A stretch of 64,000 bases of DNA, taken from an uncultured Pseudomonadota bacterium. GTDB taxonomy: Bacteria > Pseudomonadota > Gammaproteobacteria > Steroidobacterales > Steroidobacteraceae. A program made the position numbers and the translations under genes. The first letter of the stretch is position 1; each line of letters opens with the position of its first letter. The notes beneath the pieces are model-generated. The model worked only from the letters and a program-made list of their open reading frames with translations. It was not told the origin of the DNA and made no database searches. Shown here in pieces: positions 1-22,601 of this stretch. The stretch is taken from NCBI GenBank assembly GCA_903838705.1, contig CAILZL010000023.1:1-64000 (forward strand), written 5' to 3'.

Positions 1-2330
1 ATTACTGGTCAGAATATGCGTGGGGTTCTTGCCGGTCGCCAACTTGCCGTTATGGCGGGAAGCACAGGTGCCGATTAACTTCGTGTGATCCACCTTGCTG
101 GCCGGCTTGAAGGTCGAAGTCACATGACAACTTTCACAGGTATTGCTGGTCAGTATATGCGTGGGGTTCTTGCCGGTCGCTGTCGTGCCGTTGTGGCAGC
201 TAAAACAATTCGTCGTAATACCATCATGACTGAAATGAGCTGGCTTCCATGCAAGCGGTGAGTGACAGCTGCCGCAATCAGCGGTAGTTGGAATATGCGT
301 ACCTGACTTCCCAGTAGCGGTCGTACCATTGTGGCAGGAAGCACAAGAGCCTGTGACCTGTGTGTGGTCAACTCGTGTCGCGGGTTTCCACACCGCAGTC
401 ACGTGGCAGCTCTCGCAGAGATTGCTGGTCAGAATATGGGTGGTGTTCTTGCCGGTTGCCGTGGTGCCGTTGTGGCAGGTTGAGCAGCCCGTGGTAATGC
501 CTGTGTGATCAAAGCCGGCCGGCTTCCATGCCACGGTGCTATGGCAGGACTCGCAGTTATTCGTTGCAGCCACATGATTAATCGATTTGCCGGTGGCGAT
601 GCTACCGTTATGGCACGAAGCACAGGTACCAATGACCTGTGTATGGTCAACATTGGTAACAGGCTTCCAGCTGGTGGTGGCATGACAACTCTGGCAGGTG
701 GTACTGGAAAGTATATGTGTCAGGTTCTTTCCCGTGGCCACCGTGCCGTTATGGCAGGACACACAGGTACCGATCACCTGCGTATGATCCACCTTGCTGG
801 CCGGCTTGAAGGTCGAAGTCACATGACAACTTTCACAGGCATTACTGCTGAGGATGTGCGCAGTGTTCTTACCGGTCGCTGTCGTACCGTTGTGACAGGA
901 AGAACAGCCAGTGGTAATACCGGTGTGGTCATAGCCGGCAGGCTTCCAGGCCAGTGTGCTATGGCAAGTCTCGCAAGTACTGGACGATGCTATATGACTG
1001 AGTGACTTACCGGTTGCGATGCTGCCGTTATGGCACGAAGCACAGGTACCAATGACCTGACTGTGATCAACCTTGCTTACCGGTTTGAAGACACTCGTTC
1101 CGTGACAACTATCGCAGGCGTTGCTGGTCGATATATGAGCAGTATTTTTTCCAGTGGCCGTAATTCTGTTGTGGCAGGACGCACAGGTACCGATCACCTG
1201 TGTGTGATCCACCTTGCTGGCCGGCTTGAAAGCCGCAGTCACATGACAACTTTCACAGGTATTGCTGGTCAGTATATGCGTGGGGTTCTTGCCGGTCGCC
1301 GTGCTGCCGTTATGGCAGGAGGCACAGGTACCCGATACCTGTGTGTGATCCACCTTGCTGGCCGGCTTGAAGGTTGAAGTCACATGGCAACTTTCACATT
1401 GAGTGCTGGAAGAAATATGCGTGAGATTCTTGCCCGTTGCATTCGTACCATTGTGACAACTGAAGCAGTTGCTGGTAATGCCTTGATGGCTGAATTGGGC
1501 CGGCTTCCACGCCAGTGATGCGTGACAACTGCCACAATCAGCGGTAGTAACGATGTGCGTAGCCGTTTTACCCGTTGCCGTTGTGCCGTTATGACAGGAA
1601 GCACAACTGCCTGTGACCTGCGTATGATCGACAGAAGTGACTGGCTTCCACGCCACGGTGACATGACAGGTCTCACACTGATTGCTGGACAAGATATGCG
1701 CTGCATTTTTGCCGGTACTGCGCACACCGTCATGACATCCTGAACAATTATTGCTGATGCCATCGTGAGAGAAATTCGCCGGCTTCCATGCAACGGTGGT
1801 ATGACAAGTATCGCATTCCTTGCTGGTAGGAATATGCGTAGCCAGCTTGCCCGTTGATCGAACACCGTTGTGACAGGTTGAGCAGGTCTCGGTCACGCCC
1901 GTGTGATCGAAACGGGTCGCGCTCCAGTTCAATGTTGAGTGACATGACCTGCAATCCAGACTGGTCTGAATGTGTCCCGCTGGTTTGCCAGCTGCCTGCT
2001 GGTTGTTGTGACAGCTTGCACAGGAACCGGTTACCTGGGTGTGATCAAAGCGACTGGCCGGCGTCCATGAGATGGTCGTATGACAATCGGCGCAGTTGTT
2101 CCCACTCAGGACATGATTAGCAGATTTGACACTGGCCAGAACGCGTGTACCTGCAGCATGACATCCTACACATGTTATGGGCGACCCCTTGAACACACCG
2201 CCAACATGGCATGTTTCGCATCGCACCTGGCGATGTCCGCCCGTCAGTTCAAAACCTGTTGTCAGGTGATCAAACTGACTTATCAGGCTGGTCGATGGTG
2301 CAGCAGTACTGGCTGTATCCTGAGATTGCG
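1..2330 (-). repeat. Tandem 141-bp coding repeats (diheme modules)
   Basis: The cytochrome-coding DNA is built of about 16 tandem units of about 141 bp, each encoding two CxxCH motifs. Some stretches are identical over long distances: bases 121-180 equal bases 1240-1299 exactly. This suggests recent unit duplication or gene conversion. It is a protein-coding repeat, not a CRISPR array. Confidence 0.9.
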
Positions 2331-2424
2331 CCACACCGGAATGCAGGAGGCACAATGCAGCACACAGGCAGACCATCGCCATACTGCGCAACCAATGCCT
2401 GCTGATTGTGATGATGGTTCTCAT
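1..2424 (-). CDS. Giant secreted multiheme c-type cytochrome, C-terminus beyond the left edge
   Basis: The reading frame is open from an ATG at 2424 down to base 1 (808 codons) with no stop, so it continues outside the window. Residues 1 to about 35 form a signal peptide with a hydrophobic stretch ending near GVAQSQ. After that I count 31 CxxCH heme motifs and one damaged copy (CASRH, 52-66). From about residue 100 they fall into diheme modules of about 47 residues, alternating a CESCH-like and a CASCHNGT-like motif joined by segments such as FKPASKVDHTQVIGTC and ATGKNPTHILTS; histidines in the DHT and THI segments are likely distal ligands. Many modules are nearly identical, so other frames and the opposite strand show long spurious ORFs here. 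It starts 8 bases after the 21-heme gene and is probably cotranscribed. A role as the outer or extracellular conductor is inference. Family-level call is secure; exact ortholog unknown. Confidence 0.93.
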   Translation of the reverse strand, partial: MRTIITISRHWLRSMAMVCLCAALCLLHSGVAQSQDTASTAAPSTSLISQFDHLTTGFELTGGHRQVRCETCHVGGVFKGSPITCVGCHAAGTRVLASVKSANHVLSGNNCADCHTTISWTPASRFDHTQVTGSCASCHNNQQAAGKPAGHIQTSLDCRSCHSTLNWSATRFDHTGVTETCSTCHNGVRSTGKLATHIPTSKECDTCHTTVAWKPANFSHDGISNNCSGCHDGVRSTGKNAAHILSSNQCETCHVTVAWKPVTSVDHTQVTGSCASCHNGTTATGKTATHIVTTADCGSCHASLAWKPAQFSHQGITSNCFSCHNGTNATGKNLTHISSSTQCESCHVTSTFKPASKVDHTQVSGTCASCHNGSTATGKNPTHILTSNTCESCHVTAAFKPASKVDHTQVIGTCASCHNRITATGKNTAHISTSNACDSCHGTSVFKPVSKVDHSQVIGTCASCHNGSIATGKSLSHIASSSTCETCHSTLAWKPAGYDHTGITTGCSSCHNGTTATGKNTAHILSSNACESCHVTSTFKPASKVDHTQVIGTCVSCHNGTVATGKNLTHILSSTTCQSCHATTSWKPVTNVDHTQVIGTCASCHNGSIATGKSINHVAATNNCESCHSTVAWKPAGFDHTGITTGCSTCHNGTTATGKNTTHILTSNLCESCHVTAVWKPATRVDHTQVTGSCASCHNGTTATGKSGTHIPTTADCGSCHSPLAWKPAHFSHDGITTNCFSCHNGTTATGKNPTHILTSNTCESCHVTSTFKPASKVDHTKLIGTCASRHNGKLATGKNPTHILTSN

Positions 2425-2432
2425 GATCACAG

Positions 2433-3998
2433 CTACTGCATCCGGACCTGCTTGAACGAGATTGTGGTATGACAACGCTGGCATTGCCGGCCAAACTGAC
2501 CAAAGTGCACATCGTCCCGCACATGACATGAACCGCAATCAGTGGAAAGCTTGACTTCACTCGCCGGGCGCGTGTGGCAATCCGCACAATTCAGTTTTGC
2601 ATGCGCACCAGTCAATTCGAAATGCGTTACCTTACCGTGATCGAAACTCCATATATTCCAGCCATTTGTGTTGTGACAGGTTGCGCAACTCTTGCCCAGA
2701 CTGCCCCGATGCCGGTCATCCTGCTGGTGGCAGCTATAGCAATCCGTGGCGGCATCCTTGAATTGCTTGTTGAGGTGACACTGGGCACAGGTCACAACTG
2801 CATGCAGACCGGTTAGCGGATAGTCCGTCAGATCATGGTCAAACTGAATATTCCTGCGCCAGTCATCTGACATGTGGCAATGATCGCACTGGTTACCCAG
2901 CTGTCCGGCATGGGCGTCCTGAGCACGATGGCAGGCAATGCAGGTTGTACCCAGTTTCTGGGTAGCAACATTGGCCGTATGGCAGGTGTCGCAACTAAGC
3001 TTGTCATGTGCAGCTGGCAGCGCAAATCTGCCATCGCGCACATGGTCGAACTTTGATGGCTTCCAGCTATTGTTATCATGGCAGGTATCACACTTCTGCC
3101 CCATTCGCCCTGCATGGGAATCCTGAGCTTTATGACAGCCATTGCAATCCTTTGGAATAGGATCCTGCATACGACCAGTCGTATGACAACTCACACAATC
3201 TGCATGTCCATGTACGCCCAGCAGGGCAAATCCTGTTTCTTTCGCATGATCAAATTTTGCTGTGGTCCAGCTTATGGTTGAATGACACCTGGCACAGTCA
3301 CTACCGCGTGAGTTCTGATGTACATCATCCGGGGAATGGCAGGACACACACTGAGTCGGAGTATTCTTGTACCTGTTGCCAACATGGCAGGCTGAACAGG
3401 TAACTTCGGCATGCCTGCTAGTCAGCGCGAAATGCGTCTTATCATGATCAAACTTGCCATTGAGCCATGTAACCGTACTGTGACAGGCGGCGCAATCCGT
3501 ACCCAGTTGACCATTGTGTGGCTCTGACTTTTTATGGCAGTCCACACAATTTGAGGGAGCATCCCGATATTTTTTTCCGGATTGATGGCAGCTGCTGCAG
3601 GACAGGCTCAGATGTGCGTCCTGCAGGTGGAAATCAGTACGGTCATGATCAAACTGCGCCGCGACAAACTTTACGATGTCGGCATTCCTTCCCTTGTGCT
3701 CACTGTGACACGCCTGACACTCAAGACTGGTCGCATTGGCAAGTCGACCGTGAAAACCGGTCTTTTTCTGAACATCACTGGCGACTTCTTTATGACAGGA
3801 AAGACACAGCGTGGACTGAGAGATTCGATTGCTCCGGTCATGACAGTTAGTACAACCGGCTTCGAGCTTTGCATGGGCATCGCTCAGCTTGCCGGGCATC
3901 AATAGTGTTTCGATGCTGGCCGCTGCGGCAAATTCCATACATGAGTTAGCTAACAACATGATCAGAAGGAAAGCTATTCTTTGATAACACCTGAACAT
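2433..3998 (-). CDS. Periplasmic multiheme c-type cytochrome with 21 CxxCH motifs
   Basis: About 520 residues with a signal peptide (hydrophobic core FLLIMLLAN, likely cleavage after AAAA near residue 28) and 21 CxxCH motifs, from CTNCH near residue 50 to CQRCH close to the C-terminus. Motifs recur about every 20-30 residues with intervening FDHD and HAxxxC segments whose histidines can be distal ligands, the pattern of cytochrome c7/c3-like decahaem and larger proteins. The ATG at 3998 is preferred; a TTG at 4004, immediately after the upstream stop, is in frame. It sits between the membrane cytochrome b-like gene and the giant cytochrome gene with almost no spacing, so the four genes look like one operon. 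Likely role: periplasmic electron carrier linking the inner membrane to the outer cytochrome (inference). Confidence 0.92.
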   Translation of the reverse strand: MFRCYQRIAFLLIMLLANSCMEFAAAASIETLLMPGKLSDAHAKLEAGCTNCHDRSNRISQSTLCLSCHKEVASDVQKKTGFHGRLANATSLECQACHSEHKGRNADIVKFVAAQFDHDRTDFHLQDAHLSLSCSSCHQSGKKYRDAPSNCVDCHKKSEPHNGQLGTDCAACHSTVTWLNGKFDHDKTHFALTSRHAEVTCSACHVGNRYKNTPTQCVSCHSPDDVHQNSRGSDCARCHSTISWTTAKFDHAKETGFALLGVHGHADCVSCHTTGRMQDPIPKDCNGCHKAQDSHAGRMGQKCDTCHDNNSWKPSKFDHVRDGRFALPAAHDKLSCDTCHTANVATQKLGTTCIACHRAQDAHAGQLGNQCDHCHMSDDWRRNIQFDHDLTDYPLTGLHAVVTCAQCHLNKQFKDAATDCYSCHQQDDRHRGSLGKSCATCHNTNGWNIWSFDHGKVTHFELTGAHAKLNCADCHTRPASEVKLSTDCGSCHVRDDVHFGQFGRQCQRCHTTISFKQVRMQ

Positions 3999-4004
3999 GG
4001 CCAA

Positions 4005-4916
4005 TCAATACACATTCACCGAAATCACATGCACGATTCCCGCAATCAATAACATGAAGAACAGTGGCAGATGCAACAAATGCCAGAGTGAGAACAGCTG
4101 TGTGTATGCCTGAAACTCGGAAAGCTCACGCGTTGTACCAACGCGCTGCCGTATATATCCGCGCGCCACCCGTTCCAGTCGCTTCTGCTGACTGGCCAAT
4201 ACTGCAGACTGACTTACCGCCACTCGTAATGACTGGTGGACATAGCGCGTTAACTTGTTACTCGCAATCGCGGCGAGTAAAAATGCGACAGGCGGGCGCA
4301 ATAGAACCGGGCAACTGTTGACACGTCGCAACAGCTGCTGCTCTTCATATATCAGGCGCTGAAGCAATTCCGGCATGAATGGCACTGAAAGGGTTACGGC
4401 TTTGAGTCGCTCAGCATTATTCTGCAACTCGGCTAGTGTTGTTGCGCGTTCACTCAGTCCGTGGTGGATGCGAGTATAAAAATATCTACCCACCAGTCCG
4501 CTTCCAGATACAGCCAGCATGCAGAACAACGCCACATTGCTGTTGATTGCGCCCGTACTGAAGTTGGAGTGATAGAGAATACAGATCGGACCTATCAGAC
4601 CCAGAATCATATGCACCTGAAACCATGCCTTGATACTGCCCATAAAGGACAACCAGGGTAGCCGCTTGCGGGCCGGGTATAGCAGCAACAGAAGCATCAG
4701 ACTGCCGCCGATAATTCCCAGTGCATACCCGACTCCTGACTCAGGTGTCAGATAGCGCTCAGTCGGAAACATCCATCCCAGTACCAGCAATAATCCACAG
4801 ATGATGAACATCAGACCAGTTGCCGAGAACATTGATCTGAACCTGCTGAAGAAACCGCTCTGAAAATTGCTTTCAGATGCAGCAACAGATGAACTTGCAG
4901 GCTCGCTCCTGACCAT
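4005..4916 (-). CDS. Inner-membrane protein with two bis-histidine helices, probable diheme cytochrome b
   Basis: A 303-residue protein with about five predicted membrane helices (near residues 31-50, 62-80, 99-117, 127-147 and 281-301) and a basic loop of about 130 residues between helices 4 and 5. Helix 3 carries His102 and His116 and helix 5 carries His282 and His296, both pairs separated by exactly 13 residues, the spacing that binds two stacked b hemes in cytochrome b proteins. By charge, the first His of each pair would face the cytoplasm and the second the periplasm. The start ATG overlaps the upstream stop (TGATG), indicating translational coupling, and the next gene begins at once. 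Probable function: quinone- or flavin-linked transmembrane electron transfer to or from the 21-heme cytochrome. No family name is recognised with certainty. Confidence 0.75.
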   Translation of the reverse strand: MVRSEPASSSVAASESNFQSGFFSRFRSMFSATGLMFIICGLLLVLGWMFPTERYLTPESGVGYALGIIGGSLMLLLLLYPARKRLPWLSFMGSIKAWFQVHMILGLIGPICILYHSNFSTGAINSNVALFCMLAVSGSGLVGRYFYTRIHHGLSERATTLAELQNNAERLKAVTLSVPFMPELLQRLIYEEQQLLRRVNSCPVLLRPPVAFLLAAIASNKLTRYVHQSLRVAVSQSAVLASQQKRLERVARGYIRQRVGTTRELSEFQAYTQLFSLWHLLHLPLFFMLLIAGIVHVISVNVY

Positions 4917-6220
4917 CAGGGCACCTGCCTGTTGATCTTCAGCTCTACTGGTTGCGATGACGTCGTGCTTGCACTGACAGTGTCTGTCTGCAAGTCACCA
5001 CTTTGCGCCATAGCCTGGCCACTACGGGACAGACGCGCTGAAATGGTAACAGTCCCGAACTGGGACAGCTTGCGGGTTGGCATCATGGCCTGTGAATCAT
5101 CAAGTACAAACTTCACTGGCCAGGATTTGACAGTGGTGCGATAAGCAGCCACTGGAGCAGGCGAATCCGGTGCCTTTGCATAAATGAACAACGTCATATC
5201 AGAGGTCACATTATTCCTGTAGGCCGGATCAAGCGAGACGGAACCACTCACCTTTGCCTGGGCCTGGGCCTGAATCTGGCCTTTAGACTCAGGTAAGACC
5301 TTGCCCGCCAGTGATTCTGCTTCCTTGATATTGGCATCAATGATGCTCACATCCGGAGAGCTATCAGGGATGACCTTGCGTAATTGCTGCCAGAGCTTCA
5401 ACGCTTCCGCATACCGATGTTCCTCATGAGCCAGACTGGCCTTCAACCATAGTGCCTTGCTGTGCTTGGGATCGAGCTTCAAAGCTGCATCCAGCGCAGT
5501 ACGTGTTTTTGGATTAGTGAGTGTTTTGGCAAGCGAGGCTGACACATCTGCATAATCCGCCCAGGCATCAGCGCTCATCGCCTTGAGATTAATGACCTTC
5601 TCGAAAGCGGCTCCAGATTCCGCATAATTACGTGCAGTACGCTGAAGTTGTGCAATTGCCAGCCATGAAGCCGCATCCGCCGGCTTGCGTGCAACCATCT
5701 GCTCATACGATGCCAATGCAGCCTGTTCCGCTGCGACACGGGGTACGCTTTCATTTGCTTCAGCGGGCGCAGCTGGCGCTTTTAACGAGGATTCGCCTGT
5801 GGCTTTCAGCTGATGCTTCTGGGCCAGGTCAGCCGCTTCGGTATCACCCAGAAATGCATATGACTGCTGCAGCAGCTGCCAGTCTGCATCGGTACCTCCG
5901 CCTGCTGCCAGCCGCTTTGCCAATTTCTCAGCGGCTTCAAGCATTGATCCGGTGGTACCACCTGTTGCACTGGCCGCTTCAGCATGATCAGTCAATTGAG
6001 CGAGCGCGCTCGCTTTCTGATCAATCAATTCGGGTCGCCCGATCTGGAAGTAAATCAATCCCGACACCAGCAGAAAGCAGCCGATAGCGATGGCCATGAC
6101 CCTGCCTCTATGACTTACAGGCGATTCCTGCCCCGACAGGCCACGTCGCCACAACTGCACCAGAAAAAATGCAGCGGCAACACCCGCCATGAATCCTGCA
6201 ATGAACCAGAAATAGGTCAT
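4916..6220 (-). CDS. CcmI/NrfG-like tetratricopeptide cytochrome c assembly protein
   Basis: A 434-residue protein with the layout of CcmI: an N-terminal helix (FIAGFMAGVAAAFFLV), a basic loop, a second helix (AIAIGCFLLVSGLIYF, about residues 44-60), a long periplasmic part with TPR-like repeats (about 170-290), and a C-terminal beta-rich domain (about 325-434) as in CcmI. CcmI presents apocytochromes to the heme ligation complex. No other ccm gene lies in this window, so this copy is probably dedicated to the downstream cytochromes, for which it is the first gene of the operon. Its stop overlaps the next start. No clear Shine-Dalgarno is seen at its ATG. Confidence 0.8.
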   Translation of the reverse strand: MTYFWFIAGFMAGVAAAFFLVQLWRRGLSGQESPVSHRGRVMAIAIGCFLLVSGLIYFQIGRPELIDQKASALAQLTDHAEAASATGGTTGSMLEAAEKLAKRLAAGGGTDADWQLLQQSYAFLGDTEAADLAQKHQLKATGESSLKAPAAPAEANESVPRVAAEQAALASYEQMVARKPADAASWLAIAQLQRTARNYAESGAAFEKVINLKAMSADAWADYADVSASLAKTLTNPKTRTALDAALKLDPKHSKALWLKASLAHEEHRYAEALKLWQQLRKVIPDSSPDVSIIDANIKEAESLAGKVLPESKGQIQAQAQAKVSGSVSLDPAYRNNVTSDMTLFIYAKAPDSPAPVAAYRTTVKSWPVKFVLDDSQAMMPTRKLSQFGTVTISARLSRSGQAMAQSGDLQTDTVSASTTSSQPVELKINRQVP

Positions 6221-6569
6221 AGGTAAGAACGTCTGATGAAAATTGAAGTTGATATTCTAGGTGGAGCAATGAATCAGTGCACTGTACATACCCATTTCAA
6301 TCTGATTTCAGCCGGTAGAATGCACTCCAAATCAGTTTTCAGGTAGCCCCGGAGTCATACAATTTGGCCTGCATCACACATTCAGTCCCGTAACCAGCGC
6401 AGGACTGTAGCAGGATGGTAAATTAAGCCTGCTAAGGTCAGGTTGGCTGTATACGAGCACAGACAGGCCACACCTTGCTCAGGTTTTCAACCGGATGCTG
6501 GAATTACGCAGATACATGATTCGCATTGAAATTCAAAATACGCACCAAAACTGATAGTGGAGAAATTGC
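6221..6569. other. Divergent intergenic region of the electron-transfer island
   Basis: A 349-bp gene-free stretch between the minus-strand cytochrome operon and the plus-strand oxidoreductase gene. It must hold both promoters. I see no convincing small gene, no FNR-type palindrome and no clear hairpin terminator; short ORFs here lack support. Confidence 0.5.
6559..6562 (+). promoter_or_regulatory. Ribosome binding site GGAG deciding a TTG start
   Basis: GGAG lies 7 bases before the TTG at 6570. That spacing, and the membrane helix that begins right after the TTG, support TTG as the start of the ferredoxin/FAD oxidoreductase. Confidence 0.6.
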
Positions 6570-7880
6570 TTGAGTGGCTTGTTGTATCTGGTCTACACAC
6601 TGCCCCTGCTGCTGATCTGGTGGTTTTATTCCAGAAGCCGGCATGCAGCACATCAGGCCAGTCAAAAAGCTTACGAAGAATCACGTTCCGCTGGCCTGCT
6701 GGAACCGGTCTCGTTACACCCTGTAATAAATCCCAACCTGTGTGTTGGCTGCGGATCCTGTGTACGCGCCTGCCCGGAACAACCTACCCACCAGGTGCTG
6801 GGACTGATTAATGGTAAAGCTCAGCTGATCAGTCCTACGGACTGTATCGGTCATGGTGCCTGTCGGACAGCTTGCCCGATGGATGCGATCTCGCTGGTGT
6901 TCGGCAGCGCTACACGTGGTGTCGACATACCCGTGCTGAATGCCAAGTTCGAGACCAATGTACCGGGCATTTTCATCGCCGGTGAACTGGGTGGCATGGG
7001 ACTGATCCGCAATGCACTGGAACAGGGTCGTCAAGCAGTAGAGGCGATTTGCGAACACCGACCACGTGGAAAGAAGGAACTGGATCTGGTGATCGTGGGC
7101 GCAGGGCCGGCAGGTTTTTCTGCATCGCTTGAAGCAAAATCCCGAGGCCTTCGCTGCATCACACTGGAACAGGACTCACTGGGAGGCTGCGTATTTCAAT
7201 ATCCCCGTGGAAAGGTAGTCATGACTGCGCCAGCCACCTTGCCCATGGTCGGGGAAGTACACTTCAAGCACACTTCAAAGGAAGCCTTGCTGCAATTCTG
7301 GCTTGATGCCGAACGTAAAACCGGGGTCAAGATCAACTACAAGGAACGCGTGGATCTGATCCTGAATTTGCAGGATCAAGGGTTTCTGATCCGCACCAGC
7401 GCCGGTGAATACCTGACCCGGAATATTCTGCTGGCTATTGGCCGTCGCGGCACCCCGCGCAAACTGGGCGTTCCAGGCGAAGAGTTACCCAAGGTTGTAT
7501 ATCGTCTGATAGATCCGGAACAGTACGCCAACCAGCATGTACTGGTTGTAGGTGGCGGTGACAGCGCCATTGAAGCCGCTACCAGCATTGCAGCTGTTGA
7601 AGGTGCACATGTGACGCTCTCCTACCGCGGTGCTGCGTTTGATCGTGCCAAAGCCAGCAATCGGCAGCGTCTGGAAAGCGCTGTAAAATCTGGCGCAATC
7701 GACCTGAAGCTGACTTCGCAAGTACAAAAGATTGATCCGGAATCAGTCATTCTGCTGCAAGGAGGAAAGCAGATCGAAGTGCAGAATCAATCGGTAATCA
7801 TCAGTGCTGGAGGCGTACTGCCGAATGACTTCCTGCGCAAAGTCGGCATTGAAATAGAAACCAAGTATGGAACAGCGTAA
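6570..7880 (+). CDS. Membrane-anchored ferredoxin-FAD/NAD(P) oxidoreductase
   Basis: A 436-residue protein with three parts. Residues 3-18 form one membrane helix. Residues 57-110 form a ferredoxin-like domain: a standard CVGCGSCVRACP cluster motif, then CIGHGACRTACP, where the second cysteine is replaced by His. From about residue 168 comes a two-dinucleotide flavoprotein fold related to thioredoxin reductase/YpdA: GAGPAG for FAD and GGGDSA for NAD(P)H, without a CxxC redox disulfide. It would move electrons between NAD(P)H, flavin and Fe-S centres at the inner face of the membrane. It is divergent from the multiheme cytochrome operon, which suggests it feeds or drains that chain; direction unknown. 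TTG start with a good Shine-Dalgarno. Confidence 0.85.
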   Translation: MSGLLYLVYTLPLLLIWWFYSRSRHAAHQASQKAYEESRSAGLLEPVSLHPVINPNLCVGCGSCVRACPEQPTHQVLGLINGKAQLISPTDCIGHGACRTACPMDAISLVFGSATRGVDIPVLNAKFETNVPGIFIAGELGGMGLIRNALEQGRQAVEAICEHRPRGKKELDLVIVGAGPAGFSASLEAKSRGLRCITLEQDSLGGCVFQYPRGKVVMTAPATLPMVGEVHFKHTSKEALLQFWLDAERKTGVKINYKERVDLILNLQDQGFLIRTSAGEYLTRNILLAIGRRGTPRKLGVPGEELPKVVYRLIDPEQYANQHVLVVGGGDSAIEAATSIAAVEGAHVTLSYRGAAFDRAKASNRQRLESAVKSGAIDLKLTSQVQKIDPESVILLQGGKQIEVQNQSVIISAGGVLPNDFLRKVGIEIETKYGTA

Positions 7881-9873
7881 TCACCCGAATACGAGCTTGA
7901 CCATGCATGTCGCCACGACCATTCTGGCGATGGCACTGACATTTTCCGCCATCGAAACAACGCATGCAGCGCCAGCAACAACCAGCATGGAAGGGGTTAG
8001 AGCTGCGCTGCGTCTGAAAAATTATCCAAAGGCATTTGAACTTCTTGCGTCTCTGGCCAGGACAGCAAATGCTGATGCTGAATATACACTCGGGTTACTT
8101 TACCTGAATGGTCTGGGTACAGATGCAGATGCCAGGCAGGCCCGGGAATGGATTCATCAAGCAGCCGAACATGGCGATGCTGATGCTGCATATTCACTGG
8201 CAAGCATGCTCGCCAGTGAGAGTCCCGACAGGCAGACAGAAGTACAGCAATGGCTGCACAAAGCTGCTGATAAGGGCAGTGCCATGGCCAGAATGGCACT
8301 GGAAAAGGGAGTTGAACCCTATCAGTTTCAGCCAGACAAATCCTTGAGTACTCCCGCCCTGCGCCAGTCAGCATTTTTTCTGGCTGCGCGTCAGGATGAC
8401 ATCAGACTGTTAGGCCTGTTACAAGACAAGCAGCTGCTCAAAGCCACCGATGAATTTGGTCGCAGTGCATTAGCACATGCAGCCCAGCAAGGCGCATTAC
8501 GCGCAGTGATGCTACTGCTGGCGGAAGGGGCAGATAAAGATCAGGCTGATACATACGGCATTACGCCATTAATGCTGGCCGCAGGCGCAGGTCAATCCTC
8601 AGCAGCAGCCGCTTTATTGAAGAATGGCGCCAGCATCAACTTGCAGGATCGGGTCAATAACACAGCATTGATGTATGCAGCGGCGCATGATCATGCCGAC
8701 ATTGGTCAGCAACTGCTTGATGCCGGTGCTGACATCCACAAAGTGAATGCACAGAACTGGTCAGCACTGGATTGGGCAGTACATGCCGACTGCATAACGC
8801 TGTCAAAAGCATTGCGTGCGCTCGGGCTGACGACTTCCCGCAAACCAGCCATCAGTGCCGGTACACCAGCCATTCCCCTGCAGCATGCCGCGACTAATGA
8901 TCTGTACCGGAACTGGCCTGATTTGCTGATAGCCGCCAGCCGGTCTTCACCCGACCTTCTTAACGGTGTGCTCAAACTGAATGCAAGCACCGCAATTACC
9001 GGTCCTAATTCTGAGACACCTCTGCTGGTTGCAGTAAAAACCGGTGATCTTTCAATGGTCGAAAAGCTGCTGACTGCAGGCGCAGCAACTACTGTACACA
9101 TCAGCCATACTGAAAGTCCTTTGAGCTGGGCTGTGCGGCATAATCAGACTGAGATAGTGCAACTGTTACTGACTCACGGTGCTAATCCGGATTCGCATGG
9201 AAGCAGTGAACAGGCTCCATTACTGGACGCAATCCGGCAGGAAAACGAATCAACCCTGAAGGCACTTATCACTGCCAGAGTCAACACGGATGAACGTGAC
9301 TCAATGGGACGTACCGCCGCCATGCTGGCCACCAGCCGGAACCAGAGTAACCTGCTGCGAGTTCTGCTGTCCTCAGGAATGGCACTAGACAGCACTGATA
9401 AAGAAGGCAGGACAGCACTTTGGTACGCGGCAGCAACAGGAGCCAGTGACTGCCTGCAACTTCTGGTCAACGCCAAAGCCAGCACTGGAAAACCTGACAA
9501 GAGCGACACTACTCCATTAATGATCGCCGCCGCACATGGCCATGAGAAAGCCGTAACAGTGCTGGTCAATTCTTCTGTGAGCGTTACTGCAAATATCGGC
9601 TCCACCACTGCATTGATGCTGGCAGCTGGTAACGGTCACGAAAGCGTAGTACGACAGTTACTGGCAGCCGGCAGCAAGATTGATGCTCAGAACAAGTTTG
9701 GAGATACCGCTCTGATATTTGCAGTACGCAACGGCCAGGCGCTGACTGCAAAGGCCTTGCTGACTTCAGGAGCAAACACTGAGCTGCGCAATACTGATCG
9801 CGCTTCCGCCAGAAATCTTGCCGAGAAGCTCGGTAACAAGGAACTGATCACCCTGCTGTCTCAACGCAGCTAG
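7867..9873 (+). CDS. Exported Sel1-like and ankyrin repeat protein
   Basis: A protein of up to 668 residues, overlapping the end of the oxidoreductase gene by 14 bases, so probably cotranscribed. A hydrophobic segment ending at THAAPA (about residues 15-35) looks like a signal peptide; an alternative ATG at 7903 places it at the very N-terminus. Residues about 40-145 hold Sel1-type repeats (AEYTLGLLYLNGLGTDAD, then AAYSLASMLASE), followed by about a dozen ankyrin repeats (GITPLMLAAGAGQ, NTALMYAAAHDH, TTALMLAAGNGH) to the C-terminus. These are protein-protein interaction folds. Linkage to the cytochrome genes suggests a periplasmic scaffold or assembly role, but no activity can be read from the sequence. 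Confidence 0.8.
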   Translation: MEQRNHPNTSLTMHVATTILAMALTFSAIETTHAAPATTSMEGVRAALRLKNYPKAFELLASLARTANADAEYTLGLLYLNGLGTDADARQAREWIHQAAEHGDADAAYSLASMLASESPDRQTEVQQWLHKAADKGSAMARMALEKGVEPYQFQPDKSLSTPALRQSAFFLAARQDDIRLLGLLQDKQLLKATDEFGRSALAHAAQQGALRAVMLLLAEGADKDQADTYGITPLMLAAGAGQSSAAAALLKNGASINLQDRVNNTALMYAAAHDHADIGQQLLDAGADIHKVNAQNWSALDWAVHADCITLSKALRALGLTTSRKPAISAGTPAIPLQHAATNDLYRNWPDLLIAASRSSPDLLNGVLKLNASTAITGPNSETPLLVAVKTGDLSMVEKLLTAGAATTVHISHTESPLSWAVRHNQTEIVQLLLTHGANPDSHGSSEQAPLLDAIRQENESTLKALITARVNTDERDSMGRTAAMLATSRNQSNLLRVLLSSGMALDSTDKEGRTALWYAAATGASDCLQLLVNAKASTGKPDKSDTTPLMIAAAHGHEKAVTVLVNSSVSVTANIGSTTALMLAAGNGHESVVRQLLAAGSKIDAQNKFGDTALIFAVRNGQALTAKALLTSGANTELRNTDRASARNLAEKLGNKELITLLSQRS

Positions 9874-10466
9874 TGTCCCACATTCCGGTTAATGATCGTA
9901 ATAAACCGGCTCAGGCTCCCGGTACTGCCGCGCCAGCGTGAGAACTTCTGATCCTCTTCAACCATACCACCAGGAGCAAGAGTCCAGCGCTGCGCTTGAG
10001 CCAGCGCACTCAGCTGCGCAAGAGTCACTTCATAATACATCTGGTGCGCAGTGGGTGAGGGCCGAGTGAAGACGGGCGTACTGATACCCAGGTCAGTGTG
10101 CGAATCAGCACTGATTTTGAGTTGAATAGGCTGATCATCGGCCCATAACGTGACAGAGGAATAACCCACAGCAGTTCTGGACCATTGTGAAACGCTGCGA
10201 TCAATGGTGCTCCAAAGCGTAAAAGCCAGGTAGTACTTGCGAGCTCCGGATCTGTTCACTTCAAATGCGCCTATCTCGACATAGTCGCGCACATTCACTC
10301 CGGCAGGAAAGTCCTCTCGCGACAATACAATGGGTTCAATCTGTGCAGTAATCGCCGCCGCGGTCCTTGTATCGAGCCAGCTGCGAGAATCCTTGTCAGA
10401 TATGGTGACACAGGCAGCAAGACTGACTGCAAGCAAGGTGATGAGTGAAAGTCTGAAATTGCTCAT
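9870..10466 (-). CDS. Hypothetical lipoprotein
   Basis: A 198-residue protein starting with a lipoprotein signal peptide and the lipobox LAAC (Cys19). The rest is a soluble, probably beta-rich domain with no motif I recognise. Its 3' end overlaps the convergent ankyrin gene by 4 bases, so the two share no terminator. Likely anchored to the outer or inner membrane facing the periplasm; function unknown. Confidence 0.7.
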   Translation of the reverse strand: MSNFRLSLITLLAVSLAACVTISDKDSRSWLDTRTAAAITAQIEPIVLSREDFPAGVNVRDYVEIGAFEVNRSGARKYYLAFTLWSTIDRSVSQWSRTAVGYSSVTLWADDQPIQLKISADSHTDLGISTPVFTRPSPTAHQMYYEVTLAQLSALAQAQRWTLAPGGMVEEDQKFSRWRGSTGSLSRFITIINRNVGH

Positions 10467-16287: not shown

Positions 16288-16460
16288 GTACCAGCCGCAT
16301 CATACTTGTTGCTGTCATCAGACTCGGGCTGGCTCAATATGTCCCACGCGGGTGTTTCCAGATCATCAAACTGACCGGAACCCACCGCCCAGATAAAAGC
16401 CCATACCGCTATTCCGATCAGCACCAGACTCAGCGGTATCAGGATCAGCAACATACTCAT
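16284..16460 (-). CDS. ccoS: CcoS, cbb3 oxidase maturation protein
   Basis: A 58-residue protein. One N-terminal membrane helix (LLILIPLSLVLIGIAVWAFI) is followed by the CcoS hallmark WAVGSGQFDDLETPAWDIL. CcoS is required for insertion of heme and copper cofactors into CcoN in other bacteria. Its ATG overlaps the ccoI stop by ATGA and its own stop overlaps the next start, as is usual for this operon. Confidence 0.93.
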   Translation of the reverse strand: MSMLLILIPLSLVLIGIAVWAFIWAVGSGQFDDLETPAWDILSQPESDDSNKYDAAGT

Positions 16461-18922
16461 ACGGGATTGATCGCTGTATGCAATGTACGCTGCAACACTG
16501 TATCTCCAGCATCCTGCCGGCTATCCCGTAGCAACCGTGCGGCGTTTAATACAACCAGAACGGAACTGAGTGACATCCCAATAGCAGCCAGCCATGGCGG
16601 AATCAGACCCAAGGCTGCCAGGGGAATGGAAGTAATATTGTAGAAGGCTGCCCAGTAAAGATTTTGCCGCATGATTTTACGAGCACGCCGGGCTATCAGA
16701 ATGACGCATGGCAGGGATGACAATTGATTGCTCAGTAATACCGCATCGGCGCTGGCATGTGCCAAACCACTGCCCGCCCCCATTGCTATCGAAACTCCGG
16801 CAGCACTCAGCACCGGTGCGTCATTGATGCCATCCCCCACCATCGCCACTTCTCCCTTAGACTGTAATTGCTGTATGGCTTTTAATTTATCTTCCGGCTT
16901 ACATCGGGATTGATACTGATTGATACCGCAGACAGCTGCGACGGATTCAACGACCTGCCCAGCGTCTCCACTAAGAATAGACGTGCTGATTCCAGCGTCA
17001 TTAAGTTGTCTGACACACTGAATCGCATCAGACCTGAGAGGATCGGTGAGCTCGAATCGTGCCAGCACTTTTTCGTCACCACTCAAAACTACCGATGCAT
17101 CGTCAGGATCATACGAATGTTTATTAGCAGCAGCAAAAGCTGGACTGCCCAGGCGATAAGTAATTCCTTCAATCACTCCCTGCACACCCCCACCGGGAAC
17201 GATGTGCAGGTCATTTACAGTCCATCGAGCAATCCCCCGCGCCTGGAAAGCCCGAGCGACCGGATGCTCAGCACCGATTTCAAGTGAAGCAGCAATATCA
17301 TGGCATTGCACGACACTGAGACATGACATGACCTGAGTTCGGCCAATACTGACAATACCGGTACTGAGAGTACCAGTCTTGTCGAACACTACATGACTGA
17401 TACTTGCCAGTTTTTCAATTGCATCACCATGCGTAATCAACAGCCCTCTTCTTGCCATTGCGGCGCTGGCCGCAGCTATCACTGCGGGTGTTGCCAATGA
17501 CAACGCACAAGGACAACTGACCACCAGCACAGCCAGAATAGCTTCAAAAGCACGCTCAGGATTGAAATGCCACCAGACAATACCGACCAATATGCTTAGC
17601 ACGATCAGAATCTGCAAAAAATATCTGGCCACTCTATCCGCTGCCAGAGCAAGGTGCGGCTTGTCGGCCTGAGCGCGCTCCAGCAATCTGATCACACCGG
17701 AAAGAGCGGTTTTTCCACCCACTGCGGATATTCTAACTCGTATTGGTGATTCAACATTCACGGTACCAGCCAGCACACTGGAACGCACAGTGCGTTTCTG
17801 CGGCATTGCCTCACCCGTCAACATCGATTCATCCACTGTTGAGCAACCAACCGTCACCTCACCATCAGCAGGCAATACAGCCCCCGCACGTATCAATACA
17901 TCATCACCAACCTGTAACAGCGAAACAGGTATTTCCTGAATAATCTCATTACCTTCACTATCACGTGAGTAACGCTGCGCACTGACGGGTTGCAAGCTTG
18001 CCAGGGCATCGCCACGGCTGGCGCTTCGATGCCGTAAAACCATCTCAACATAGCGACCAAGACTCAGAAGAAATACAAACATGGTGACTGAATCAAAGTA
18101 GGTATCCCCTGCACCGAGGAGCGTATGGTAAACACTGGTAAGGTATGCCATGAGCAAGGCCAGCGTCACCGGTACATCCATATTGATAGTCCTGTTGCCA
18201 AGCGCACGCACAGCACCATATAAAAACGGCCACCCGGAATAGAACATGACTGGAGTGGTCAGCAGCATGGAAATCAGCTGCAGATAATGCTGGACCGGAA
18301 CTGCCATATGCGTCTGGTCACGCAGATACAGGGGCAATACATACATCATCACCTGCATCATGCCAATGCCAGCCACACCGATTCTACGTAACGCATTGCG
18401 CCGCTCCGTCTCCTTGTGATGCCGGACAGAGTCGGCTGTCACAGGCTGCGCCTGATAGCCCAAGCCACTCAGTGCGCGCAACAGATCTGCCATTTGCAAT
18501 CGATTGTGATCCCACTCGACCCGAACCCGGGCAGTTGCGACACTCACTCCGACTTTGGTGACTCCCGGAAGACGACCCAGCCCGCGTTCGATCAACCAGC
18601 CACATGCAGCACAACGGAAACCCTCAACAAGCAAGTTCACCTCACAATATCCAGCCGTATCAGTATGTACATACTGAGCAGCTATTTCAGGTCGAGCGAA
18701 AAACTGCAACTTGTCATCGTGATTCTGTCCGGACTGCTGCGCGGGTTGACTGCGAAACCGGTAGTAGTCAGTCAGCCCCATCCCTGCAATCAACTCAGCC
18801 ACAGCCCGGCAACCCTCGCAGCACATGGTTGCAGGCCCATCCGGAAGCTGGGCAAATACTTTAGTTCCAGCGGGAACGGGTTCTGCACAGTGATAGCAGA
18901 GTGACGAAGATCGGGTATTCAC
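16457..18922 (-). CDS. ccoI: CcoI, copper-exporting P1B-type ATPase for cbb3 assembly
   Basis: An 821-residue protein with the CcoI/FixI layout: an N-terminal cysteine-rich metal-binding segment (CYHCAEP and CCEGCRAV), an HMA domain with CAAC (about residue 100), membrane helices, an actuator with LTGEAMP, the copper-site CPC motif (SCPCALSLATP), the phosphorylation site FDKTGTLS and the hinge GDGINDAP. It supplies copper for the binuclear centre of CcoN. GTG start at 18922, three bases after the upstream stop; the 3' end overlaps ccoS. Confidence 0.94.
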   Translation of the reverse strand: MNTRSSSLCYHCAEPVPAGTKVFAQLPDGPATMCCEGCRAVAELIAGMGLTDYYRFRSQPAQQSGQNHDDKLQFFARPEIAAQYVHTDTAGYCEVNLLVEGFRCAACGWLIERGLGRLPGVTKVGVSVATARVRVEWDHNRLQMADLLRALSGLGYQAQPVTADSVRHHKETERRNALRRIGVAGIGMMQVMMYVLPLYLRDQTHMAVPVQHYLQLISMLLTTPVMFYSGWPFLYGAVRALGNRTINMDVPVTLALLMAYLTSVYHTLLGAGDTYFDSVTMFVFLLSLGRYVEMVLRHRSASRGDALASLQPVSAQRYSRDSEGNEIIQEIPVSLLQVGDDVLIRAGAVLPADGEVTVGCSTVDESMLTGEAMPQKRTVRSSVLAGTVNVESPIRVRISAVGGKTALSGVIRLLERAQADKPHLALAADRVARYFLQILIVLSILVGIVWWHFNPERAFEAILAVLVVSCPCALSLATPAVIAAASAAMARRGLLITHGDAIEKLASISHVVFDKTGTLSTGIVSIGRTQVMSCLSVVQCHDIAASLEIGAEHPVARAFQARGIARWTVNDLHIVPGGGVQGVIEGITYRLGSPAFAAANKHSYDPDDASVVLSGDEKVLARFELTDPLRSDAIQCVRQLNDAGISTSILSGDAGQVVESVAAVCGINQYQSRCKPEDKLKAIQQLQSKGEVAMVGDGINDAPVLSAAGVSIAMGAGSGLAHASADAVLLSNQLSSLPCVILIARRARKIMRQNLYWAAFYNITSIPLAALGLIPPWLAAIGMSLSSVLVVLNAARLLRDSRQDAGDTVLQRTLHTAINPV

Positions 18923-18925
18923 AGA

Positions 18926-19138
18926 CTATTTAAGTGGTGGAGTTACCGAGTTGACTACGTGCTGGTGAGCTCCAGTTTGTGTAGAGAGTGATTCTACTGG
19001 GTCAATCGACAACGCCTGATCAGGGTACTGCCACACCAGATAAAGAGTTATTAAACCACCTATAACGGCTAACGCAGGCGGCACGAGCAGCAACCATGCA
19101 GCGCGGTTACCACTTTTTTCAATTGTGCTGGTCGACAT
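18926..19138 (-). CDS. Small membrane protein in the FixH/CcoH position
   Basis: A 70-residue protein with a single membrane helix (WLLLVPPALAVIGGLITLYL, residues 15-34) and a short periplasmic tail. It lies between ccoG and ccoI with gaps of 8 and 3 bases, where ccoH/fixH is normally found. FixH proteins usually have a much longer periplasmic domain, so this is either a very short FixH relative or an unrelated replacement. No conserved motif is visible in the tail. Confidence 0.65.
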   Translation of the reverse strand: MSTSTIEKSGNRAAWLLLVPPALAVIGGLITLYLVWQYPDQALSIDPVESLSTQTGAHQHVVNSVTPPLK

Positions 19139-19146
19139 ACATTGCC

Positions 19147-20553
19147 TTACATTGGTGAGAAAAAACGGGACTCAGAAGCAGACTGCAAGTGTTGCTGGTC
19201 AGTACTGATGACATTGAACCTGACCGGATGTGATCCGCCTTTATCAGGAGCAGGCGCGGCTACGCGCAGGGTGACACTCAGCACTTCGCTGGCTGGCACC
19301 TGCAAATCAGCGTTGCTCAAGACAATCCTGGCATCCTGTATACCAGTTACACTGAGTTTGTATGAGTGAGATTTGCTGTCCTTGTTGATAAGGCGAATTG
19401 TATACACGTTCTCAATCAGTCCATCCTCGGTTTCGTGGTACATGGCGGTTCTGTCCCTCAGTACATCCAGCACAACCAGACTGCGATGCGTCACTGCATA
19501 GGCATACCCCACCACCAGCAACCCAAGCAGCAGCCCATAGATCATGGTCCGCGGTCTCAGGACATGCGGTGAGTTACCGTCAATGGCCGACTGCGTTGAA
19601 TAGTGAACCAGTCCACGTGGATAATTCATCTTGTCCATAACCGAGTCACAGGCATCAATGCACGCAGCGCATGCAATGCACTCGTATTGCAGCCCTTTGC
19701 GGATATCAATTCCGGTAGGGCAGGCCTGTACGCATAACGTACAGTCGATGCAATCCCCCAGCCCTTCAGACTTGTACGCCATCCCTCTACCGCGCGAACC
19801 ACGCGGTTCACCACGTACAGCGTCATAACTGATGATCAGCGTGTCCTTATCAAACATCGCGCTCTGGAAGCGCGCATAGGGGCACATGTATTTGCATACC
19901 TGCTCACGCATGTAGCCGGCATTGCCATATGTTGCAAATCCATAAAACAACACCCAGAAAGTTTCCCACGGGCCGGTTGAGAAACCGTTCAGCTCATGAA
20001 ACAGTGTTCGCACCGGTGTAAAGTAACCAACAAAGGTAAACCCGGTGTACAGACCGAAACTCACCCACAGAACCTGCTTGGCTCCCTTACGCCATAACTT
20101 GTTCAGATTCCATGGCGCCTTATCCAGCTTTATCCGCTGCTGACGATTGCCCTCAGTCAGACGCTCCATCCACACAAATGCATCAGTCCATACGGTCTGG
20201 GGACAGGCATAACCACACCACAAGCGTCCAGCCACAGCCGTGAAAAAAAACAGAGAAAGCGCAGCAATGATCAACAACCAGGTCAGGAAGAAGAAATCCT
20301 GCGGTAGAAAGATCATATTAAATATATAGAACCTGCGTGCCGGCAGATCGAAAAGCACCGCCTGCCGCCCGTCCCATTTAAGCCATACCAGTCCGTAGAA
20401 AATCCCCAGCAGGACCAGTGTTGCCAGTGTGCGCAGGTTGCGATACCGACCCGGTACTTCTCGCGGATAGATTTTTTGCTGTGCAGCGTAAAGCGCTTCA
20501 CTCTGACCAGACGGCTGCGTTAAAGCCGGTTCACGTTGCGGTCTGTCACTCAC
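19147..20553 (-). CDS. ccoG: CcoG, cbb3 oxidase assembly ferredoxin-like protein
   Basis: A 468-residue protein of the CcoG/FixG/RdxA family. It has several membrane helices, the RLWCGYACPQTVW motif near residue 110, two 4Fe-4S motifs (CIDCTLCVQACP and CIACAACIDACD, about residues 268-300), and a C-terminal immunoglobulin-like periplasmic domain. CcoG reduces copper for delivery to the cbb3 oxidase in Rhodobacter. GTG start two bases after the upstream stop; full length for the family. Confidence 0.94.
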   Translation of the reverse strand: MSDRPQREPALTQPSGQSEALYAAQQKIYPREVPGRYRNLRTLATLVLLGIFYGLVWLKWDGRQAVLFDLPARRFYIFNMIFLPQDFFFLTWLLIIAALSLFFFTAVAGRLWCGYACPQTVWTDAFVWMERLTEGNRQQRIKLDKAPWNLNKLWRKGAKQVLWVSFGLYTGFTFVGYFTPVRTLFHELNGFSTGPWETFWVLFYGFATYGNAGYMREQVCKYMCPYARFQSAMFDKDTLIISYDAVRGEPRGSRGRGMAYKSEGLGDCIDCTLCVQACPTGIDIRKGLQYECIACAACIDACDSVMDKMNYPRGLVHYSTQSAIDGNSPHVLRPRTMIYGLLLGLLVVGYAYAVTHRSLVVLDVLRDRTAMYHETEDGLIENVYTIRLINKDSKSHSYKLSVTGIQDARIVLSNADLQVPASEVLSVTLRVAAPAPDKGGSHPVRFNVISTDQQHLQSASESRFFSPM

Positions 20554-20555
20554 AA

Positions 20556-20870
20556 TTATCCCTGCTTGCCCTGCTCTTTCCCGTGCGATACCGGCTGGAC
20601 AAAATGTTCATGAGATGTATCCAGCATGTAAGCAGTGAGACTTGCAGCGCTCGCAGCAACAAACCAGAACCCGAAAAAGCCGAGTGCATATGTGGTCATG
20701 TCATTAGGCAACCACCATGGATAATTGAGTATCGCGCTCAGATCCTCTGGATCAACAAAGGCAAAAAAAAGCATGGTAGATACACTTGCAACCAGAAATG
20801 ATATCCAGATGACCACCGCAACATCTTCACGCAGACGCGACCAGTGAACTTCATCTGGATTGTCACTCAC
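20556..20870 (-). CDS. Small two-helix membrane protein of the cbb3 locus
   Basis: A 104-residue protein with two membrane helices (about residues 17-40 and 59-81), GTG start, located between ccoP and ccoG. It is not one of the standard Cco proteins. Tight spacing to ccoG suggests cotranscription and a possible accessory role in the oxidase. Function unknown. Confidence 0.75.
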   Translation of the reverse strand: MSDNPDEVHWSRLREDVAVVIWISFLVASVSTMLFFAFVDPEDLSAILNYPWWLPNDMTTYALGFFGFWFVAASAASLTAYMLDTSHEHFVQPVSHGKEQGKQG

Positions 20871-20894
20871 GAGCTCACCCCGCTACAGGATTCG

Positions 20895-21791
20895 TTATGG
20901 ATGAGACAAGCCATACACATAAGCAGCCAGCAACCGGACTTTAGTTTCACCCAGCAGCGGCAGGTGTGCGGGCATCTCGTTACTTCGGCCATTGGTTACC
21001 GTTTCACGCAATACATTCATTGAGCTGCCGTACAGCCATACCTTGTCGGTGAGATTGGGCGCACCTACTGCCTGATTGCCTCTTGCATCAACACCATGGC
21101 ATGCAACACAGATGGTAGCGAATCGTTGCTTGCCGGGTTCAATCCATTCTTCAGGCACCTTGCGGCCACTCAAGCTGAGCACATAAGCAGATACTTCTTC
21201 TACGCCCTGCTTGCCCAGAATTGCCACCCAACCGGGCATCACTCCTTTGCGGCCATGCGCTATCGTTTCGTATATGGTTTCCGGATTGCCGCCCCATAGC
21301 CAGTCGTTGTCGGTCAGATTGGGAAATCCGCTATTTCCCCGTGCATCGGCGCCGTGGCAGGCCGCACAGTTATTGGCAAACAGATTTCTGGCAGCAGACA
21401 TGGCCTCGGCATTTTTCGACAGACTCACCAAGTCCATTTTTGCAAATTGTCCGTATCGAGCTTCAAATACCGCCTGAGTCTGTGCCTGCTCCTGAGCCAG
21501 CTGGGCGCTCGATGTCCATCCTCTTGTCCCTGCATAATTTCCCAGACCCGGATACAGGGACAGATAAATAAACCCGAACAGGATGGTGAGTATGAACAGC
21601 CAAAGCCACCAGCGTGGCAGGGGATTGTTGTACTCCTCGATTCCATCCCATGAGTGACCTGTAGTATTGCTCTCGGTATTAGCCGTCCGGCGTCTGGCAG
21701 TCCACCAGATCAACCACAGGCAGGCAAGCATGTTTGCCACAGACATCACTATCACGAACCAGGCCGCAGGCGACGACATCAAGGAACTCAT
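20895..21791 (-). CDS. ccoP: CcoP, diheme c subunit of cbb3 oxidase
   Basis: A 298-residue subunit with two N-terminal membrane helices (about residues 7-30 and 59-80) and two cytochrome c domains with CAACH (about residue 141) and CVACH (about residue 228), each followed by GxDARGN. CcoP passes electrons from soluble cytochrome c to CcoO and the binuclear centre. Its ATG overlaps the ccoQ stop. Length is normal for the family. Confidence 0.96.
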   Translation of the reverse strand: MSSLMSSPAAWFVIVMSVANMLACLWLIWWTARRRTANTESNTTGHSWDGIEEYNNPLPRWWLWLFILTILFGFIYLSLYPGLGNYAGTRGWTSSAQLAQEQAQTQAVFEARYGQFAKMDLVSLSKNAEAMSAARNLFANNCAACHGADARGNSGFPNLTDNDWLWGGNPETIYETIAHGRKGVMPGWVAILGKQGVEEVSAYVLSLSGRKVPEEWIEPGKQRFATICVACHGVDARGNQAVGAPNLTDKVWLYGSSMNVLRETVTNGRSNEMPAHLPLLGETKVRLLAAYVYGLSHP

Positions 21792-22587: not shown

Positions 22588-22601
22588 GTGTACGTACTCA
22601 A

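Follow-up and report, generated by a model that had tools for sequence, protein, structure and literature searches.

PCC3 is a predicted outer-membrane electron conduit that, in the passages of He et al. 2017 (PMC5566968) describing it, consists of four components, namely, a porin, a giant extracellular multiheme cytochrome (MHC), a periplasmic MHC, and an inner-membrane protein (IMP) of ~300 amino acids (aa) with five transmembrane (TM) segments, SGXXG on TM4, and WX3HX13H on TM3 and TM5. The published median heme numbers are 34 for the extracellular and 21 for the periplasmic cytochrome (PMC5566968, same passages), and PCC3 was named a candidate iron oxidase and a possible marker in the relevant portions of several papers. 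The DNA analyzed here, referred to as the window, is the whole stretch of 64,000 nucleotides at positions 1 to 64,000 of contig CAILZL010000023.1 (C23) from an uncultured gammaproteobacterium of the Steroidobacteraceae (assembly GCA_903838705.1, genome G000), and it begins with a locus that almost certainly belongs to PCC3. Two genes at this locus, encoding an iron-sulfur (FeS) flavoprotein and an ankyrin protein, look like a near-obligate and a near-constant partner of PCC3, respectively.

On the minus strand, the earlier note had read genes for a CcmI-like assembly factor, a probable diheme b protein, and two cytochromes, one with 21 hemes and one giant, all of which were recovered by open reading frames (ORFs), Pfam matches, and motif counts; the flavoprotein and ankyrin genes are divergent from this set. 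The porin gene, giant MHC, 21-heme MHC, and IMP with its motifs are all present and follow the PCC3 order, and the IMP helices are placed accordingly in a predicted model. These four components are common to PCC3 as covered in PMC5566968 and in the Gallionellaceae survey PMC10734462, in the passages concerned, and the probable total of at least 41 hemes in the giant cytochrome and the 21 of the second are near the medians. In comparison to the four published components, the FeS-flavoprotein is an addition found here and at nearly all loci, usually together with the ankyrin protein, and genes for the CcmI-like protein and a small lipoprotein are extra in this lineage. The resemblance noted earlier to porin-cytochrome clusters of iron oxidizers holds, with a porin on contig C35 and a gene set matching PCC3. 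The organism itself is not a member of the Gallionellaceae; its kin are gammaproteobacterial metagenome-assembled genomes (MAGs), most of them from freshwater, and the IMP relatives come from lakes, soil, groundwater, and one manganese enrichment.

PCC4, in the sections devoted to it in He et al. 2017 (PMC5566968), shares an IMP of similar motifs that neighbors multiheme cytochromes as well as a redox protein of FeS type, but it has smaller cytochromes, is without an extracellular MHC, and its IMP shows no significant overall homology to that of PCC3. The porin-cytochrome principle is also common to Mtr/Mto/Pio and OmcA/MtrC. Membership in these systems was rejected: MtrB_PioB was not among the Pfam families of 38 porin homologs, TIGR03508, for the MtrA/DmsE-type decaheme, had 0 matches above its cut-off in the genome, and the decaheme families stayed below their curated cut-offs.

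FeS-flavoprotein and ankyrin protein at PCC3 loci

Co-occurrence and synteny were named in the earlier note as a check on its gene set. Among 369 class-wide genomes, searched irrespective of gene neighborhood, 42 carried the IMP (E ≤ 1e-20), 44 the flavoprotein (E ≤ 1e-60), and 41 both, so that the flavoprotein was found in 41/42 genomes with the IMP versus 3/327 without it (Fisher P ~1e-49, uncorrected for kinship). Each of the genomes with two IMPs had two flavoproteins (5/5), and the association was kept in 36 of the 272 genera sampled. In a phylum sample of 398 genomes, the IMP was present in 7, the flavoprotein in 7, and both in 6.

Linkage was counted in two overlapping samples (shared genomes include G000, G143, and G196), the named loci, comprising the best 80 of 429 with an IMP relative, and the class-wide loci, comprising 40 of 47 IMP matches from the 369 genomes; counts were restricted to loci with enough sequence, for the flavoprotein at least 4 kb upstream. 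Open frames were searched with profiles; the hidden Markov models for the named loci derive from a training set of 14 loci, and some of these reappear among the 80 under other names. The flavoprotein was linked at 59/61 named and 34/38 class-wide loci, the ankyrin protein at 50/55 and 27/31, and the porin at 38/40 and 22/24. The CcmI-like protein was linked at 57/61 named but 7/38 class-wide loci, and the small lipoprotein at 31/40 and 0/24. These counts indicate that the flavoprotein and the ankyrin protein belong to PCC3 generally, whereas the CcmI-like protein and the lipoprotein mark this lineage; the latter two were therefore rejected as core PCC3 parts, at class-wide counts from order-derived profiles that may miss distant forms. 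Tree distances of the IMP and the flavoprotein were correlated (r = 0.82), as were inter-locus distances among the IMP, flavoprotein, porin, and ankyrin protein (r = 0.81 to 0.88), with 0/200 permutations as high in either case.

Taken together, the flavoprotein is very probably a functional partner of PCC3. The earlier suspicion that a combination with an ankyrin/Sel1 protein and an FeS-flavoprotein is little described was borne out, while the idea that it is special to this island was not, both being standing PCC3 parts class-wide. A main-text word count gave no ankyrin in PMC5566968, PMC10734462, or PMC12442390; ferredoxin is likewise absent from the main text of PMC5566968 and occurs in that of PMC10734462 only in passages not concerned with PCC3. 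No literature joining PCC3 with ankyrin was found, nor any joining porin-cytochrome, flavoprotein, diheme cytochrome b, and extracellular electron transfer, in searches that covered open-access journal papers.

The loci without a flavoprotein match were L078 and L113 of the 61 named and L138, L147, L154, and L158 of the 38 class-wide loci. For the class-wide misses, the gene is carried on another contig in G143, G326, and G059 and further along the same contig in G295. In G059 and G326, which belong to one genus, the flavoprotein is still retained on a separate contig without PCC3 genes. A similar claim of retention without linkage was rejected for G143 and G769, where the two halves are pieces of a single cluster whose break falls within the giant cytochrome. 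Other irregular cases were G247 with the IMP and only a flavoprotein fragment, G234 with the flavoprotein, ankyrin protein, porin, and an 11-heme gene on a contig ending there, G155 with a split flavoprotein on a 3.5-kb contig, G091 with the flavoprotein in two pieces separated by TGA, and G196 with a different protein matching profile positions 120 to 430 only.

Two loci stand apart. L125, labeled Nitrospinaceae and by this label outside the Proteobacteria, carries the IMP, flavoprotein, ankyrin protein, and a 33-heme gene, for which horizontal transfer or a binning error is possible. L176 from G779, an alphaprotein-type case, carries a weak IMP (3.3e-21), a frame of 836 aa that weakly matches the flavoprotein, and 10- and 4-heme genes in a PCC4-like set, which hints at a pairing of IMP and flavoprotein in PCC4, too.

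The flavoprotein gene (6570..7880, plus strand, TTG start) was predicted earlier to encode a membrane-anchored ferredoxin/flavin adenine dinucleotide (FAD)/NAD(P) protein, and a single hydrophobic segment at the N terminus, a pair of ferredoxin-type motifs, and a Pyr_redox domain were confirmed. Residues 1 to 19 are hydrophobic and directly followed by Arg and His, which suggests that the domain is cytoplasmic. The remainder, beyond the ferredoxin domain, has a YpdA/thioredoxin-reductase-like FAD/NAD(P) fold with two dinucleotide motifs; a solved relative, Bdr (7a7b, 5.2e-40), covers the C-terminal two thirds, and the membrane segment and ferredoxin domain are extra relative to this family. 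The score against YpdA, 167.2 bits, was below the curated cut-off of 339.9 bits. Outside the FeS ligands, neither a conserved redox cysteine nor a redox cysteine pair was found in the aligned flavoproteins (n = 14). Past the second dinucleotide motif, R353, R359, and K361 are invariant in these 14 and may presumably favor NADPH, by analogy with thioredoxin reductase. The ferredoxin-type motifs are CX2CX2CX3CP and CX2HX2CX3CP; in the second motif, His replaces the second Cys in 14/14 aligned proteins and in 98/100 frames, one of the two misses being a truncated gene. Child et al. 2018 (PMC6237146) report [3Fe-4S] clusters in the ferredoxins that they examined with His or another residue at that position, and on this ground the second center may be [3Fe-4S] or a His-ligated [4Fe-4S]. 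The next gene, a conserved neighbor at 7867..9873 on the plus strand, encodes the Sel1/ankyrin-repeat protein with a probable signal peptide.

Inner-membrane protein, cytochromes, and porin

The IMP gene (4005..4916, minus strand, 303 aa) carries WX3HX13H at residues 98 and 278 and SGLVG at 139; H102, H116, H282, H296, W98, W278, S139, G140, and G143 are invariant in 55/55 aligned IMPs. Pfam gave no match, and a sequence search against the PDB gave nothing meaningful among 11 matches with E from 0.063. Hydropathy and the predicted model (pLDDT 86.7) point to five TM segments, with a sixth, weaker hydropathy peak near 201 to 222; in the model the His pairs lie on TM helices and a long helical segment joins TM4 and TM5. 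In a structural second look, SpNOX superposed with a root-mean-square deviation (rmsd) of 2.8 to 3.0 Å over 111 to 114 residues (8qt6, Z 8.4, 2.8 Å, 111 residues; another SpNOX entry, Z 7.5, 18% identity). STEAP1, Dcytb, b561, and bc1 cytochrome b gave rmsd values of 3.3 to 4.2 Å with Z of 7.8, 7.8, 7.3, and 9.2 (3.7 Å for bc1), respectively. The IMP has HX13H pairs in TM3 and TM5, as SpNOX/STEAP do, and its helical bundle, superposed at 2.8 to 3.8 Å, may be of the same b type. The ferric-reductase-like spacing of the motifs had already been pointed out in the PCC3 passages of He et al. 2017 (PMC5566968).

Several results weigh against this assignment: Foldseek of the model found no PDB match at E ≤ 0.001, ABC exporters outrank SpNOX by Z, yet at an rmsd of ~7 Å, and for helical proteins a Z below ~13 may, according to the tool's own warning, reflect a common arrangement only. 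The structural scores alone are thus no proof, and it is motifs and fold together by which the IMP is read as probably a diheme b protein of the general NADPH oxidase (NOX)/ferric reductase fold. NADPH oxidases and ferric reductases carry a fused FAD/NADPH domain, whereas the 303-aa IMP, with five predicted TM helices, is without one and its candidate partner is a separate flavoprotein of the thioredoxin reductase/YpdA type with a ferredoxin domain.

The giant cytochrome MHCx (1..2424, minus strand) is represented in the window by its N-terminal 808 aa with a likely signal peptide and 31 CXXCH at a heme spacing of 23 to 24 residues; close to the edge of the window, one motif has the sequence CASRH. 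The earlier count of at least 31 heme sites was reproduced, and the gene is open at base 1. The 21-heme periplasmic-type cytochrome MHCp (2433..4004, minus strand) has 21 CXXCH in 523 aa, a number kept in its homologs at 68/80 named loci. A chance origin of the motifs was ruled out by residue shuffles (1,000 each), which gave means of 0.44 for the giant and 0.30 for the second cytochrome and a maximum of 3 for both. Both proteins match Pfam Cytochrome_C7 (2.1e-43 and 2.9e-28, respectively), and an extracellular site is predicted for the giant and a periplasmic site for the 21-heme protein. A further multiheme gene of the same genome lies on contig C42 (L199 7331-9541, 736 aa, 8 CXXCH).

The window starts at base 1 of C23 (G000:C23:1-64000), and the giant cytochrome gene is therefore cut by the assembly. 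A search of the genome with the giant protein gave one other strong match, at the end of contig C35, with 62% identity over the repeat region: an open frame of 299 aa with 10 CXXCH and one CX3CH (L007 18498-19397, minus strand), probably the C-terminal MHCx fragment. C23 and C35 are taken as neighbors because both ends are open in the giant gene, the order of cytochrome then porin occurs in related clusters, and the genome has a single IMP. The giant cytochrome likely has at least 41 CXXCH, plus any lost in the gap, provided that the two pieces are one gene; that the join relies on the contig ends weighs against this. Assemblies of other genomes, G143 and G769 among them, break in the giant gene as well.

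In a class-wide relative, the PCC3 cytochrome frame is much longer (L196 1022-13237, contig C17 of G269, continuing L133 12022), with 4,071 aa, 133 CXXCH, no internal stop, and a porin following it. It is not an obvious assembly repeat, as only 15/12,156 60-mers are repeated. The largest heme count known to He et al. 2017 was 85 (PMC5566968, in the part on heme numbers), and no larger one was found in a narrow literature search.

The porin gene (C35, L007 16019-18490) starts 7 bases after the MHCx fragment and encodes 823 aa with a C-terminal Phe. Pfam gave no match for it at E ≤ 0.001, and BLAST found counterparts in related clusters, e.g., with 45.8% identity to a protein of L035. Among the porin homologs, a SPOR domain (28/38) and TPR_16 (32/38) precede the barrel, an arrangement that may tie the porin to peptidoglycan. 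For the L091 homolog (17023-19488), AlphaFold2 predicted 22 strands from residue 376 (pLDDT 83.7, pTM 0.67), and Foldseek of this model gave 299 matches at E ≤ 0.001 (best 3.4e-11), the best 50 all being outer-membrane barrels. The C35 gene is thus predicted to encode the outer-membrane beta-barrel porin of the cluster, by way of the barrel modeled in the relative and a link to the window via the contig ends. The earlier note had advised looking to the left of base 1 for a porin, NHL, or peptidyl-prolyl isomerase gene; the porin was located, and no NHL gene was recognized near it on C35, where ORFs over 19 kb (and over 16 kb in the window) were read by eye without a profile search. An NHL gene, a peptidyl-prolyl isomerase gene, and an undecaheme UetJ mark the Tenderiales-type Uet cluster. 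A PpiD-like peptidyl-prolyl isomerase (ORFs named by eye) is located on C35 amid protease genes, ~11 kb away from the porin, and directly past the porin are three HupE/UreJ-family genes (L007 13243-15759), possible nickel/cobalt permeases.

Among the remaining neighbors, the CcmI/CycH-like TPR protein (4916..6220, minus strand) matches Pfam Ig_CycH (1.1e-30) and is a second copy, another CycH-Ig gene being located on contig C22. The small putative lipoprotein (9870..10466, minus strand, 198 aa) had no match in Pfam or NCBIfam. Its relatives mostly follow the porin in this lineage, while here it sits at the opposite flank beside the ankyrin gene, which suggests a rearrangement in this genome. 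Farther along the contig are the cbb3 oxidase genes for CcoN, CcoO, CcoP, and CcoG (19147-24065), which together with a P-type ATPase (16457-24065 in all) fit microaerobic respiration.

Electron path and competing explanations

In the proposed path, electrons of NAD(P)H would pass via FAD and the two FeS centers of the membrane-tethered flavoprotein to the IMP, whose predicted pair of b hemes would span the inner membrane, with H102/H282 at the cytoplasmic side, H116/H296 at the periplasmic side, and the long TM4-TM5 segment facing the cytoplasm. From there they would reach the 21-heme protein as periplasmic wire and, through the porin, the giant surface cytochrome, so that the two large cytochromes may form a continuous electron path, and finally an outside acceptor, e.g., Fe(III) or humic matter. 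Flavoprotein and IMP would work like an NADPH oxidase with the dehydrogenase half as a separate protein. The CcmI-like protein may help to attach hemes to the large cytochromes, and a periplasmic scaffold is the role suggested for the ankyrin protein. Such a path would be the simplest one giving each conserved part a task. As in NADPH oxidases, an outward path fed by NAD(P)H would be downhill in the direction of the membrane potential, whereas Fe(II) is unable to reduce NAD(P)+ uphill against that potential via a simple two-heme protein.

Direct electron transfer from flavoprotein to IMP is slightly favored, a mainly outward flow is given an even chance, and the outward, NAD(P)H-fed explanation as a whole is held to be as probable as its negation. 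The further proposal that PCC3 is an NAD(P)H-fed exporter, a split NADPH-oxidase-like module discharging cytoplasmic reductant to the outside rather than an iron oxidase, is tentative.

Published expression data point in both directions. In Sideroxydans lithotrophicus ES-1, both PCC3 clusters were lower on Fe(II) than on thiosulfate in the data reported for them in PMC8788666. In the proteome table of PMC12016527, the percentiles of PCC3 proteins are middling or low, for magnetite as well as for other columns, and the ES-1 PCC3 extracellular cytochrome Slit_1448 is 0 in all eight. Humic matter was proposed as a lake acceptor for porin-cytochrome genes in general, in the pertinent part of PMC6344600. 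The outward explanation is weakened by the following points. The IMP of PCC3 copy 2 in Sideroxydans CL21 was significantly up in iron-oxidizing cells (PMC12442390, PCC3 results), and a quinone link with inward flow was proposed in He et al. 2017 (PMC5566968, sections on PCC3). RuBisCO was commoner in IMP genomes (29/42 versus 144/327, uncorrected for kinship), which fits lithotrophic uptake, with none in this genome. Among the loci, no fused IMP-flavoprotein gene scored above 60 bits for both parts. Co-occurrence, moreover, speaks for partnership and not for electron transfer, and the genomes are non-independent samples.

The strongest competitor, doubtful in our judgment, is PCC3 as first proposed, in which an outside donor such as Fe(II) feeds electrons through the porin and the IMP to the quinone pool, with the flavoprotein as a side branch or a regulator of the quinone/NAD(P) balance. 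The model of He et al. (PMC5566968, in the passages cited), the occurrence of PCC3 in iron oxidizers, the upregulated IMP of CL21, the RuBisCO enrichment, and the likeness of the IMP fold to quinone-type cytochrome b as well all agree with it. It leaves a near-obligate flavoprotein of NAD(P) type without a role, though, and does not sit well with the uphill step from Fe(II) to NAD(P)+, the lowered ES-1 clusters and the zero values of Slit_1448, and a host genome without a match to the large chain of RuBisCO at E ≤ 1e-60.

A role in assembly, in which the flavoprotein, CcmI-like protein, and ankyrin protein would supply reductant and chaperoning for heme attachment, with the IMP as part of this machinery, is improbable. 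The linkage of a second-copy CcmI-like gene to the cluster at most named loci and the predicted export of the ankyrin/Sel1 protein speak for it. The flavoprotein has no conserved dithiol, however, and its closest solved relatives do reduce disulfides, yet as separate soluble enzymes; the class-wide linkage counts also make it independent of the CcmI-like protein. That the flavoprotein and ankyrin genes are merely old neighbors without a functional tie to the conduit is very improbable. Linkage and co-transfer alone could yield part of the co-occurrence; against this explanation stand the persistence across 36 genera, the matched copy number in all two-copy genomes, retention on a separate contig in G059 and G326, and constant presence while gene order shifts.

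If the NAD(P)-type flavoprotein is indeed part of PCC3, the system may run in the reverse direction or have its link to NAD(P) instead of quinone, and PCC3 genes in metagenomes of lakes, soil, and sediment would need another reading. The partnership of flavoprotein and PCC3 yields a testable idea on the source of PCC3 electrons.

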